From positions 124,001 to 188,000 of the forward strand of contig NZ_FMKA01000002.1 in assembly GCF_900096945.1 (NCBI RefSeq): a DNA stretch of 64,000 bases, read 5' to 3'. The notes beneath the pieces are model-generated. The model saw only the letters and a list, made by a program, of their open reading frames with translations. It was not told where the DNA came from and searched no databases. Below are positions 380-42,599 of the stretch, piece by piece; position 1 is the first letter of the stretch, and every line of letters begins with the position of its first letter. Made by a program: the position numbers and the translations under genes. This DNA is from Anaerobium acetethylicum. GTDB taxonomy: Bacteria; Bacillota; Clostridia; Lachnospirales; Lachnospiraceae.

Positions 380-428
380 AAAAAAATCCTCCTTAAAAAA
401 ATAAAATTCTACAGGAGGAGACTACTTT

Positions 429-513
429 GGTGCTTCCTTACGCCGGCATTAACCGTGTCAAGTTTTGAGGGTCAGCATGAAACATGCTTTCTCAGCCAAA
501 GGCTCCCCTAGCA
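429..513 (-). promoter_or_regulatory. TPP riboswitch (THI element) in the thiT leader
   Basis: On the minus strand the leader carries the THI-box landmarks in order: CTAGGGGAGCC, then TGGCTGAGA, then GACCCT, then GGTTAATGCCGGCGTAAGGAAGCA. These are the conserved pyrimidine- and pyrophosphate-binding parts of the TPP aptamer. No separate long T-run terminator is obvious between the aptamer and the thiT ribosome site, where a CTCCTCC tract occurs. Control of translation start is therefore plausible, but that last point is inference. Confidence 0.93.
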
Positions 514-539
514 ATATAAACTGCTATTAAGTTAAAACC

Positions 540-5082: not shown

Positions 5083-5964
5083 ATGGAAATGCCGGCAAAT
5101 CGATCTGTATATGCAGATTATCTGTTTTTGTTAATCGGTTCGGGACTGATGGCTTTCGCCATTCAGACTATCTATTCTCCAGCAGATCTTGTAACCGGCG
5201 GCTTTACCGGTGTGGCAATCATCGTTAAGAGTATCAGCGGCAAATGGATGGACAGCGGCATTCCACTTTGGCTTACCAATACCATCCTAAATATCCCGCT
5301 GTTTATTGCAGCGATACGCATCAAGGGAGTCCGCTTTCTTGGCAGGACTGGATTTGCTACGCTGGCGCTGTCCGTGTGGCTTTATCTGATCCCGGATAAG
5401 CCCATGATGACAGATGATCTGGTGCTTGCATCTTTGTTTGGCGGAGCGATCAGCGGTGCGGGAATGGGCCTTGTTTTACTGGCACGGGGAACCACAGGGG
5501 GAACTGATATGCTGGCCGTGCTGGTACAGCATTACATGAAGCATTACACGATTGCCCAGGTCATGCAGGTTATTGATGCGGCGGTTGTCCTGGCAGGAGC
5601 ATTTCTGTTCGGAATCAGCAATGCATTATACGCCGTAATCGCAATCATTGTGGTATCCAGGATTACAGATGGAATTATTGAGGGGCTTAAGTTCTCAAAA
5701 GTCGCTTATATTATTACCGACAGATATGAAGAGGTCGCCGCAGCGATTATGAAAGAAACGAACAGAGGTGCGACAGGCCTGATCGCAAAGGGGATGTATT
5801 CGGGAAAATACAGGAATATGCTCTTTTGTGTCGTTTCCAAAAAGGAGATTGTCCTTCTGAAGGAAATCGTTATCAATACGGATCCTGATGCTTTCGTTAT
5901 CGTAACGGATGCAAGGGAAGTTCATGGGGAAGGATTTATCGAGCACAGGAAACAGGGCGTTTGA
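5083..5964 (+). CDS. YitT family membrane protein (DUF161 + DUF2179)
   Basis: The protein has about five N-terminal membrane segments (SPADLVTGGFTGVAIIVKS is the DUF161 signature). It ends with a cytoplasmic DUF2179 domain of roughly 80 residues (GATGLIAKGMYSGKYRNML). The family is abundant in Clostridia; transport has been proposed but no substrate is established. The ORF-track start at 4957 lies deep in the upstream gene. ATG 5083 gives 293 residues, a typical length, but ATG 5089 (GGCGGA in front) is equally possible. A strong terminator follows at 5997. Confidence 0.85.
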   Translation: MEMPANRSVYADYLFLLIGSGLMAFAIQTIYSPADLVTGGFTGVAIIVKSISGKWMDSGIPLWLTNTILNIPLFIAAIRIKGVRFLGRTGFATLALSVWLYLIPDKPMMTDDLVLASLFGGAISGAGMGLVLLARGTTGGTDMLAVLVQHYMKHYTIAQVMQVIDAAVVLAGAFLFGISNALYAVIAIIVVSRITDGIIEGLKFSKVAYIITDRYEEVAAAIMKETNRGATGLIAKGMYSGKYRNMLFCVVSKKEIVLLKEIVINTDPDAFVIVTDAREVHGEGFIEHRKQGV

Positions 5965-10181: not shown

Positions 10182-10195
10182 CGTTATATCCAAAA

Positions 10196-10239
10196 TCAGC
10201 ATAAGAACGCCTCGCGGGACAGGTATTCTGAACAGTTAC
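10196..10239 (+). repeat. Dispersed intergenic repeat, copy A
   Basis: The core TCAGCATAAGAACGCCTCGCG followed by GACAGGTATTCTGAACAGTTAC is shared with copies at 42539 (same strand) and 19437 (opposite strand). TCAG near the start can pair with CTGA near the end. Confidence 0.75.
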
Positions 10240-11580: not shown

Positions 11581-11632
11581 GCCAGGCGCCCCGGACAATC
11601 TTTTTTATATGTTCGGGGCGCCTGGCTCTTTC
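11581..11632 (+). terminator. Strong terminator after the S41 protease gene
   Basis: GCCAGGCGCCCCG pairs perfectly over 13 bp with CGGGGCGCCTGGC and is followed by TCTTTCTGT. The next 60 bases (to 11700) hold a weak similarity to the dispersed repeat and no gene. Confidence 0.88.
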
Positions 11633-11708
11633 TGTATCGAGGTTGTTATGTGCTCTGTGAGCTGCTATTCACCCTGTGATTCGTAACACGCTGCACGCAC
11701 CGGTTTTC

Positions 11709-17605: not shown

Positions 17606-17630
17606 GTATTGGGTGGTGCTATCTGCATGA

Positions 17631-17674
17631 ATAACGATTCAGGACTATGCTGGATAGTGGTTCTGAAAAGTTAT
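17631..17674. repeat. Long imperfect inverted repeat overlapping the cyclophilin stop codon
   Basis: ATAAC-N2-TTCAG-N-ACTAT-N5-ATAGT-N4-CTGAA-N2-GTTAT is a nested inverted repeat of three 5-bp blocks. The TTCAG/CTGAA and ATAAC/GTTAT blocks are reminiscent of the dispersed intergenic repeat, without its CCTCGCG core. The TAA of the minus-strand gene (17671-17673) lies in its right arm. Confidence 0.6.
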
Positions 17675-18201
17675 CTGCATGAATTCTTTTCTGGTTCAGG
17701 ATATTCCTGTCCGAAAAGTTCAACTGTCACTGTTTTGATAACCTGTGGTTCAAGTGGACGGTCGTTGTAATCCGCAGCGCATTCAGCGATTTTGTTTACA
17801 ACTTCAAGGCCTTCAGTGACCTGTCCGAATGCAGCATACTGTCCGTCAAGATGAGGAGAGTTTTTATGCATGATGAAGAACTGAGATCCTGCCGAGTTAG
17901 GATTCATAGACCTGGCCATTGATAAAACGCCTGGCGCATGTTTCAGGTTGTTTGTGAATCCGTTCATTTTGAATTCACCATTGATGCCGTATCCCGGGCC
18001 GCCCATTCCGCTTCCTTCAGGACATCCGCCCTGAATCATGAAGCCGTTGATGACGCGGTGGAAAATAAGACCGTCATAAAAGCCTTTCTTGATAAGGCTG
18101 ATGAAGTTGTTGACTGTATTCGGTGCGATTTCAGGATAAAGTTCTGCCTTTATGATGTCGCCATTTGCCATTTCGATTGTAACTAATGGATTCTGTGCCA
18201 T
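17671..18201 (-). CDS. Peptidyl-prolyl cis-trans isomerase, cyclophilin type
   Basis: This protein of 176 residues starts MAQNPLVTIEMANGD. The cyclophilin core is clear: FHRVINGFMIQGGCPEGSGMGGPGY with the catalytic Arg, then PNSAGSQFFIMHKNSPHLDGQYAAFG. The protein has no signal peptide, so it acts in the cytoplasm as a folding helper. The ORF-track start at 18435 would add an unrelated 78-residue leader across a promoter. AAAGGAAG lies upstream of 18201 on the minus strand. It is transcribed away from the GNAT gene. Confidence 0.95.
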   Translation of the reverse strand: MAQNPLVTIEMANGDIIKAELYPEIAPNTVNNFISLIKKGFYDGLIFHRVINGFMIQGGCPEGSGMGGPGYGINGEFKMNGFTNNLKHAPGVLSMARSMNPNSAGSQFFIMHKNSPHLDGQYAAFGQVTEGLEVVNKIAECAADYNDRPLEPQVIKTVTVELFGQEYPEPEKNSCR

Positions 18202-18349: not shown

Positions 18350-18391
18350 TCTGTTACTAAAGTCCACGCTGCAGACAGTAGTAACACGCTT

Positions 18392-18434
18392 TGCGATGCG
18401 CAGAAATGGCCGCAATTCGTCATTTCGCGCTGCA
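18392..18434 (+). promoter_or_regulatory. Strong hairpin in the GNAT leader next to the ribosome site
   Basis: TGCG-GCGC-GAAATG pairs with CATTTC-GCGC-TGCA, giving about 14 pairs with two small bulges (AT and A) and a 12-base loop. It ends seven bases before the GGGAGGAAAGG ribosome site and lacks a T-run, so it is not a terminator. It could affect RNA stability or ribosome access. Confidence 0.55.
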
Positions 18435-18458
18435 AGCCACGGGAGGAAAGGACAGGAT

Positions 18459-19316
18459 ATGCTTAAGGGAGTCGTTATCAATATTGAAAAAGAGGACCTC
18501 ACTGAAATCGCAGGAATTGAAATATTCACGGAAAGCCTGGGGATGACAGGGGTGAAAATAAAAAAACAGTCACTGGAAGAAAAGGGCGCAGTCAGTCTGG
18601 AGCCTGGAGAGCAGCCAAATGAATGGGTGATGATTGCTGACAGCATGAAGGGAGTCCGTGCAGCCAGTAAGGCTGGGATCCCATGCATAGGCTATCAGAA
18701 GCCGGGGCCGGATTCTGAATACCTGCAAGGGGTCCTGTACATCATAGAAGGGTTTGAAGAAATAGATTCCGAATGGGTCAATAATGTGTACAAGAGAAGC
18801 AGGGGTGAACCCTGGACAATCGCTGAAACGGACAGGCTGATCATCCGCGAGATGACCCTGGATGATGTGGATGATCTATGGAAACTATATGAAGATCCTG
18901 AAATCACCCGGTATATGGATGGACTCAGCGGCGACAGGGGGAAGGAAACGGAACTGATGGCGGCTTATATAAAGATGATGTACGGATTTTTCGAATACGG
19001 GCTGTGGGCTGTTGTGGAAAAATCCACGGGCAGGCTTGCTGGCCGGGCCGGGCTCTCGAACAGGGAGACGGAGGATGGTATGGAGGTCGAGCTTGGATAC
19101 ATGGTGGGACTGCCGTTCCAGAAGCAGGGATATGCATACGAAGCCTGCACGGCAGTGCTGGATTATGCAAAAAATATCCTCTGCCTGGACAGAATCGCTT
19201 GCTATATCAGGGAAGGAAACATCCCTTCCATCAGACTTGCAAAAAAGCTTGGGTTCAGGTTAAGGGGAAAAACAGAAAACGGAGATACCCTGGCATATGA
19301 GATTGAGCTGGTTTAA
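18459..19316 (+). CDS. GNAT acetyltransferase with N-terminal HAD-phosphatase remnant
   Basis: The protein of 285 residues starts at the ATG at 18459 behind GGGAGGAAAGG. About residues 1-110 resemble the C-terminal part of a HAD phosphatase: VMIADSMKGVRAASKAGIPCIGY looks like motif IV with its Gly-x2-Ala-Ala-x2-Ala-Gly pattern. No N-terminal DxDGT nucleophile motif is present. Residues about 125-285 form a RimJ/RimL-type GNAT domain (TDRLIIREMTLDDVDDLW; then GYMVGLPFQKQGYAYEA for acetyl-CoA; SIRLAKKLGF). The acetyl acceptor is unknown. The fusion suggests a retasked HAD fold as a sensor or docking piece. Confidence 0.82.
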   Translation: MLKGVVINIEKEDLTEIAGIEIFTESLGMTGVKIKKQSLEEKGAVSLEPGEQPNEWVMIADSMKGVRAASKAGIPCIGYQKPGPDSEYLQGVLYIIEGFEEIDSEWVNNVYKRSRGEPWTIAETDRLIIREMTLDDVDDLWKLYEDPEITRYMDGLSGDRGKETELMAAYIKMMYGFFEYGLWAVVEKSTGRLAGRAGLSNRETEDGMEVELGYMVGLPFQKQGYAYEACTAVLDYAKNILCLDRIACYIREGNIPSIRLAKKLGFRLRGKTENGDTLAYEIELV

Positions 19317-19436: not shown

Positions 19437-19481
19437 GATAACTGTTCAGAACTCTTGTCATGCGAGGTGTATTTATGCTGA
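19437..19481 (-). repeat. Dispersed intergenic repeat, copy C (reverse orientation)
   Basis: On the minus strand it reads TCAGCATAAATACACCTCGC then ATGACAAGAGTTCTGAACAG and TTATC. It aligns along its full length with copies A and B. It lies in the 243-base gap before parA. Confidence 0.72.
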
Positions 19482-19485
19482 ATTT

Positions 19486-19510
19486 GCATAAATACCCGGG
19501 ATATTTATGC
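19486..19510 (+). promoter_or_regulatory. Perfect hairpin upstream of parA
   Basis: GCATAAATA and TATTTATGC pair perfectly around CCCGGGA. The left arm can pair instead with TTTATGC at the edge of repeat copy C, so two mutually exclusive folds exist. No T-run follows. The rest of the 19317-19559 gap holds an A-rich stretch without a clear gene or promoter. Confidence 0.55.
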
Positions 19511-20958: not shown

Positions 20959-21075
20959 GGTGTCAGACAAAGGCTTTGTAGCAGCGATCCAGGACTAAGC
21001 GTTCTATAGTTACACAGGATGCACCAAAATTGCTGAACCAGCAAAGATATTTCATGCAGTGGGGAGAAAATAAAG

Positions 21076-24333: not shown

Positions 24334-24345
24334 ACGCAGGTATCC

Positions 24346-24377
24346 AGAGCCGCTGTTTCGTGAGGCGTTGTTATGCA
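24346..24377 (-). repeat. Partial dispersed repeat, copy D (reverse orientation)
   Basis: On the minus strand TGCATAACAACGCCTCACGA followed by AACAGCGGCTCT aligns with the left two-thirds of copy A (GCATAAGAACGCCTCGCGGGACAG). The adjoining TTATGCA-N4-TGCATAA is a perfect 7-bp hairpin. Confidence 0.5.
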
Positions 24378-24421
24378 GGTATGCATAAGAACCCCAATTT
24401 TTCAGAGAGAGGTACACGAAT

Positions 24422-41964: not shown

Positions 41965-42522
41965 ATGGGTCAGATAACAGTAGAAAAATGTGAGATAGAA
42001 GGATTAATGGTCATTGAACCAAAAGTATTCGGAGATGAAAGAGGATACTTCATGGAAACTTATAATTACAACGATTATAAGGCAGTTGGAATCGACCAGA
42101 ATTTCGTGCAGGACAACCAGTCAAGCTCAATAAGAGGTGTTTTGAGAGGCCTTCACTTCCAGAAGGATTTTCCACAGGACAAGCTTGTAAGGGTTGTCAG
42201 CGGAGAAGTATTTGACGTTGCAGTCGACTTGAGACCAGGCTCTGAAACTTTCGGAAAATGGTACGGGGTTATCCTTTCAGCAGAAAACAAAAAGCAGTTC
42301 TTCATTCCAAAGAATTTTGCACACGGCTTTGTCGTGTTGTCGGAATCGGCTGAATTTGCTTATAAATGCACGGATTTCTATCATCCAAACGATGAAGGCG
42401 GACTTTTATGGAATGACCCTGAAATAGGGATTGAATGGCCGATACCGGCAGACATGGAACTTGTAATTTCTGAAAAAGACCAGAAATGGGACGGAATCAA
42501 AAAAACTTTCGGAACAAAATAG
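41965..42522 (+). CDS. rfbC: dTDP-4-dehydrorhamnose 3,5-epimerase
   Basis: This cupin-fold enzyme of 185 residues has the signature VQDNQSSSIRGVLRGLHFQ with its active-site His, and IPKNFAHGFVVLSESAEFAYKCTDFYHP. It performs the double epimerisation before RfbD. The ATG at 41965 has AGAGGTAATT upstream; the track start is a TTG six bases earlier. Confidence 0.96.
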   Translation: MGQITVEKCEIEGLMVIEPKVFGDERGYFMETYNYNDYKAVGIDQNFVQDNQSSSIRGVLRGLHFQKDFPQDKLVRVVSGEVFDVAVDLRPGSETFGKWYGVILSAENKKQFFIPKNFAHGFVVLSESAEFAYKCTDFYHPNDEGGLLWNDPEIGIEWPIPADMELVISEKDQKWDGIKKTFGTK

Positions 42523-42538
42523 AATTAGTAACTAAAAT

Positions 42539-42582
42539 TCAGCATAAAAGCACCTCGCGAGACGGGGATTCTGAACAGTTAC
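42539..42582 (+). repeat. Dispersed intergenic repeat, copy B
   Basis: TTCAGCATAAAAGCACCTCG followed by CGAGACGGGGATTCTGAACAG and TTAC aligns with copy A with few changes. Flanking TAGTAACT and AGTTACTA, with inner TTCAG and CTGAA, give a long hairpin with the conserved CCTCGCG core in its loop. Confidence 0.78.
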
Positions 42583-42599
42583 TAGAATTATACATAAAC

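Follow-up and report, generated by a model that had tools for sequence, protein, structure and literature searches.

REP elements are not known to carry target duplications, and insertion sequences of the IS66 family have GTAA ends and 8-bp duplications. REP elements are palindromes of 20-40 bp that are tagged GTAG or CGTC (PMC3733652). Bacterial MITEs such as Correia/NEMIS, RUP, ERIC and RPE are shorter than 200 bp and non-coding, have inverted ends and target duplications, form stable predicted stem-loops, and are dispersed as intergenic copies; one of them, NEMIS, acts at the RNA level (PMC2229807).

The repeat family described here is like these MITEs in its length, lack of genes, ends, duplications, stem-loops and dispersal. 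It was noticed in a window of 64,000 nucleotides from Anaerobium acetethylicum (Lachnospiraceae), the whole stretch of DNA analysed, in which the initial annotation had recorded a family of 44-base hairpin repeats and proposed REP- or MITE-like elements or small structured RNAs. Taking the evidence as a whole, the repeats are very probably non-autonomous, MITE-like DNA transposons with a covarying folded body, a reading in which we infer both a transposase acting in trans and a part played by the fold.

Extent and distribution of the element

The three recorded copies of about 44 bases, at 10196-10239 (plus), 42539-42582 (plus) and 19437-19481 (minus), are correct in position and strand, and all of them lie between open reading frames, that is, outside genes as had been stated. 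A degenerate 43-base pattern of this right end (up to 3 mismatches) has 68 matches in the 4.6-Mb host genome and 0 when reversed, so that the repeat is beyond chance; the count exceeds the minimum of about ten copies that the initial annotation had set for its reading. A 31-base left end has 140 matches (up to 3 mismatches; control, 0). Alignment of the flanks revealed that most right-end copies extend about 100 bases leftward, and the 44-base unit is merely the right end of a non-coding element of 142-143 bp. This larger unit spans GTAACTATTCAGGACTACGTCCTTCATAGTC ... TTCTGAACAGTTAC and has imperfect inverted repeats, GTAACTATTCAGGA / TTCTGAACAGTTAC, at its two ends. Its body consists of two hairpins, P1 and P2, and lies between ends that pair with each other.

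Full-length copies of 142-143 bp, on both strands, account for 56 of the 68 right-end matches, and a BLAST-type search recovers more than 40 near-full copies. The full copies are 2 to 24 bases off the consensus, which indicates that the host family ranges from recent to old insertions. Others are internally deleted or lack one end. A LINE-like 5' truncation, suggested by the frequent right-end-only copies, was rejected because left-only copies are frequent as well. Altogether the host has well over a hundred copies, none with genes, and the family is short, non-coding, uniform in length and widely dispersed in the manner of a MITE. Most copies lie between genes; out of 42 examined, 10 overlap an open reading frame from mechanical prediction, which may reflect start extension. 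Orientation to the neighbouring genes shows a marginal trend and no rule beyond it. Five copies are nested in another, longer repeat (about 430-480 bp; L345 4892-5370 and L346-L349), which has inverted GTCAAAAGCC ends and several hairpins and carries the element in its middle at all five sites.

The window contains two members bounded by target-site duplications (TSDs) and four fragments. The copy at 42528-42582 (plus), whose right end matches the genome-wide family, had been listed as a plain 44-base copy. The repeat itself is real, but what stands there is a complete 55-bp miniature (GTAACT...AGTTAC), which by direct reading is flanked by a perfect 8-bp duplication, TAGAATTA, at 42520-42527 and 42583-42590. 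It is an internal deletion of the 143-bp form that kept the P2 3' arm and the right end. The extension of its ends to TAGTAACT/AGTTACTA, also recorded earlier, is genuine and consists of element end plus target repeat. The second miniature, at 17631-17674 (plus), had been described as a nested inverted repeat sharing only the end blocks. It is in fact a 44-bp family member, ATAACGATTCAGGACTATGCTGGATAGTGGTTCTGAAAAGTTAT, that consists of no more than the two ends and the left hairpin, with perfect 8/8 repeats of CTGCATGA at 17623-17630 and 17675-17682. When the window was scanned for TSD-bounded elements, 17631-17674 alone scored 8/8 in that scan (reversed sequence, 0; Markov controls, 0-1); two further 7/8 pairs have poor ends and were dismissed as chance.

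The fragments were placed with a covariance model. The copy at 10192-10239 (plus, E = 5e-7) retains the P2 3' arm, the conserved CGCCTCGCGGGACAG and the right inverted end; its left part is gone and a target duplication is absent. The copy at 19438-19504 (minus, E = 9e-9) has also lost its left part and retains the whole P2 hairpin and the right inverted end. A partial copy noted at 24346 (minus) is supported as a decayed P2/right-end fragment at 24344-24395 (E = 0.0008), located between two flagellar rod/hook-type genes (Pfam). The weak similarities noted at 11632-11653 and 20995-21015 find no support in the model and are probably chance. The fourth fragment, at 18381-18444 (plus, E = 1.4e-5), was absent from the initial annotation: it is a fossil of a Blautia/Murimonas-type subfamily, GTAACACGCTTTGCGATGCGCAGAAATGG...CATTTCGCGCTGCA, with words common to elements of other genera, and it lies in the leader of a GNAT acetyltransferase gene. 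Over 18381-18460 the fossil continues into CACGGGAGG directly before ATGCTTAAGG, and its conserved CTCGGGA motif may be the origin of the ribosome-binding site of the acetyltransferase gene.

Beyond the host, a DNA search found related elements in 14 of 299 genomes of the same family, the host counted, and stricter model settings found them in 10 of 392 genomes of the same order, all ten in the same family. Named records with relatives include Blautia, Oliverpabstia, Murimonas, Fusicatenibacter, Eubacterium sp. and other Lachnospiraceae; one carrier, G249, matches Murimonas intestini (Lachnospiraceae) identically over 1,621 bp. The layout is common to the host family and the elements of other Lachnospiraceae genera. 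Exact 12-base end words occur 137 and 256 times in two relatives (controls, 2 and 9), and the exact host right-end pattern had no match among the genome contigs. Many of the relatives' elements terminate in GTTAC rather than GTAA. A 94-bp GTTAC-type member with perfect 8-bp repeats is also present in the host (L264 317-410, G000:C34), so two subfamilies coexist there. A search of plasmids found no element and one of IMG/VR almost none. One full-length relative lies at 5093-5237 of MT836813.1 (H1, L380), a human fecal contig labelled Bacteriophage sp. that may be bacterial.

The sizes of bounded elements run from 27 to 233 bp. Those of 27-28 bp are nearly ends alone (L215 102-128, L227 101-127, L203 6497-6523, L212 2920-2946 and L173 5008-5035), are flanked by 8-bp repeats (7/8 at L215), and to our knowledge are among the smallest such elements. 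Such forms may represent the mobile minimum or may have arisen by collapse, since in some subfamilies the second arm of the left hairpin directly repeats the right end.

Insertion and the search for a mobiliser

Full copies end in terminal inverted repeats, GTAACTATTCAG / CTGAACAGTTAC. The TSDs that the initial annotation had proposed to look for were found; their length is fixed, as in a MITE, and is 8 bp. Direct 8-bp repeats around full copies are perfect in 31 of 56 and match at 7 or more of 8 positions in 39 of 56; when the left flank of one copy is compared with the right flank of another, 7 or more positions match in 0.26% of cases. Across all loci, 170 elements (a redundant count) of 22-260 bp combine perfect 8-bp repeats with good ends, compared with 0 in reversed sequence. 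The duplicated 8-mers are AT-rich and varied, with no fixed word. Furthermore, one locus in relatives is polymorphic for insertion. The relative G550 carries a 145-bp member flanked by TCATAGCA repeats; its sister species G636 aligns across the joined G550 flanks without a break at 96% identity, and its empty locus holds a single, slightly diverged target copy. A filled site in G550 and an empty one in G636 form the pair expected of transposition. The ends would be recognised, and the unit inserted, by a transposase of the DDE type that cuts with an 8-bp stagger and acts in trans.

These observations also bear on a possible origin as a REP/RAYT-type repeat, moved by a tyrosine transposase that acts on single strands. 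Short hairpin repeats in intergenic positions and both orientations fit such an origin, but 8-bp target duplications and inverted ends are foreign to that chemistry, and a unit of 143 bp falls, in length and composition, outside the GTAG/CGTC REP classes with their layout of short tagged palindromes (PMC3733652). This origin is almost certainly wrong. Of the initial 'REP- or MITE-like', the MITE half holds, on inverted ends, 8-bp TSDs, dispersed copies in both orientations and an empty site, and the REP half is dropped.

What moves the elements was sought in several ways. The 1.66 Mb of loci searched contained neither a transposase nor an autonomous element with such ends. Sampled regions of the relative G102 contained no autonomous element, and the complete genome of G550 contained no kb-sized pair of exact ends. 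The end pair of 4.6 kb at L176 involves an ordinary element and arose by chance. The only kb-sized TSD-bounded pair in all loci is a 1,022-bp composite at L008 522-1544 (G000:C33), in which an inverted deleted copy and a full copy enclose a toxin-antitoxin-like operon, with a Phd/YefM-type antitoxin gene and a second small open reading frame without a Pfam match. The target word ATCTACTT occurs there three times, and the composite may represent gene capture by an element pair. In the data examined the family is an orphan, though a parent in several copies could have escaped the draft host assembly. The transposase that is missing makes a concrete target, and a findable one.

Could the IS66 transposase be the mobiliser, with the family as an IS66-specific MITE? 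Judged by the ends, IS66 is the best guess: the host-family ends begin with GTAA and the duplication is 8 bp, both as in IS66. However, PF03050, the IS66 transposase, is absent from the host genome, so that IS66-like ends and the enzyme do not occur together there. IS66 copies sequenced in G102 share the GTAA start but end in GTAAACGTCAAACC and diverge from the element ends beyond it. Element ends were found at none of the IS66 loci examined, and the GTTAC ends of many relatives do not fit either. We consider an IS66 origin quite unlikely and keep to an orphan MITE-like family.

The two-hairpin fold

A covariance model, the check suggested by the initial annotation, was built, and both P1 and P2 show compensatory changes; the covariation and the conserved ends on which that annotation had made its reading depend are thus both present. 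In a MAFFT alignment of 28 elements, drawn from some ten genomes, P1 is paired in 98.2% of cells, with changes on both sides at 7 of 8 pairs, and pairing falls to 28-44% when the partner is slid. A second set, of 73 distinct non-host rows, gives 97.5% pairing in P1, and all 8 pairs there have double changes; its rows were aligned by the model, which biases them towards structure. In the upper stem of P2, double-changed cells number 27, whereas shuffling gives 8.5 on average and 17 at most; this alignment depends partly on a register fixed by flanking motifs. The loop motifs GCACA/GCGC and CTCGG/CACCTCGCGG are asymmetric and nearly fixed while the stem sequences vary. The consensus folds with z of -6.1 as DNA and -6.9 as RNA. 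What is claimed here is a conserved two-hairpin fold, whatever its function.

Covariation of this kind need not reflect selection. Template switching or arm-to-arm conversion could turn imperfect palindromes into perfect ones during replication, leaving P1 and P2 as functionless by-products. Double changes do far outnumber single-sided intermediates (46 versus 4 cells in P1, for example), and GT and AC intermediates are equally frequent in the host copies, which fits a strand-neutral DNA process. The asymmetric loops GCACA/GCGC and CTCGG/CACCTCGCGG have nevertheless not become palindromes, and across genera no other part is as conserved; among the host copies, the P1 and upper P2 stems vary far less than the loops, which correction by itself need not produce. 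We regard this account as a serious possibility, if a somewhat improbable one. Covarying hairpins in an ordinary MITE layout offer an unusual test between a selected fold and palindromes kept by replication errors.

A second account takes the element, spread by transposition, to encode a small structured RNA or to be an RNA hairpin module acting in cis (for example an RNase III processing site, a stabiliser or a regulator). The strong fold, the compensatory changes and the fixed loop motifs all agree with it, and NEMIS is a precedent (PMC2229807). In addition, a U-G wobble in lower P2, where the host consensus has U-A, is kept by 69 of the 73 non-host elements, a hint at the given strand. Selection on RNA of that strand should raise GT mismatches above AC. 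Distinct paired mismatches in the host copies number 27 GT and 23 AC, which gives no sign of selection on the RNA of one strand; P1 stems of other genera have 11 GT versus 5 AC, some from doubtful rows. The mismatch types favour neither strand clearly, and the orientation bias to neighbouring genes is only marginal. For ten element-bearing loci, Rfam gave nothing related up to an E value of 1, and for the window, at gathering cut-offs, nothing except, elsewhere, a TPP riboswitch (RF00059) at 418-519 (minus). The RNA account is rather unlikely. The elements may yet be small structured RNAs, as was suggested earlier, in that the fold is strongly conserved with compensatory changes.

For a transposon with a selected fold, the hairpins would act single-stranded, most simply in the replication or mobilisation of source copies; we infer this because the elements favour intergenic sites with no clear orientation to neighbouring genes. 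Miniatures without the full folded body are still TSD-bounded, so the body is dispensable for ending up as a bounded element, and these forms are possibly later deletions. A bolder version, which we think doubtful, has the mobiliser recognise the single-stranded fold (fold-guided cut-and-paste) or the element serve as a mobile riboregulator carried through Lachnospiraceae. If it were true, the partner enzyme would be new for GTWAC-ended elements.

Comparison with known repeats

Lachnospiraceae are dominant gut bacteria, and the family reaches tens to more than 100 copies in several of their genomes, where it would be expected to influence the regions between genes, disrupt assemblies and leave fossils in the leaders of genes. 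Literature searches on MITEs in Lachnospiraceae, Blautia or Roseburia retrieved no description of it, and searches with the printed end sequences retrieved unrelated papers only, apparently through chance matches to short sequences.

Several described repeats are similar in part. The bcr1 and other repeats of Bacillus cereus (100-400 bp) are likewise dispersed, with tens to 130 copies per genome and mobile features, but their mobility is tied to TTTAT repeats (PMC6542083), whereas the present family has other ends and varied AT-rich 8-mers at its flanks. Yersinia YPAL/RU-2, of about 168 bp, is also palindromic with empty and filled sites; it has duplications of 3 to 26 bp and internal inverted repeats (PMC2229807), in contrast to the fixed 8 bp and terminal repeats found here. 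The Caulobacter CIR repeats share two folded arms, a phylogenetically conserved structure and intergenic location, yet their arms are joined by a linker and their 5' and 3' ends are unpaired (PMC2229807), whereas here pairing inverted ends enclose P1 and P2. Compared with the bacterial MITEs, the family has an 8-bp duplication and GTWAC ends instead of TA-type ones (PMC2229807), occurs in many genera of one family, and combines covarying hairpins with no parent transposase found. It is apparently an undescribed orphan MITE family of Lachnospiraceae, of a known kind, in which the ends, the breadth and a covarying fold conserved to an unusual degree appear to be new.
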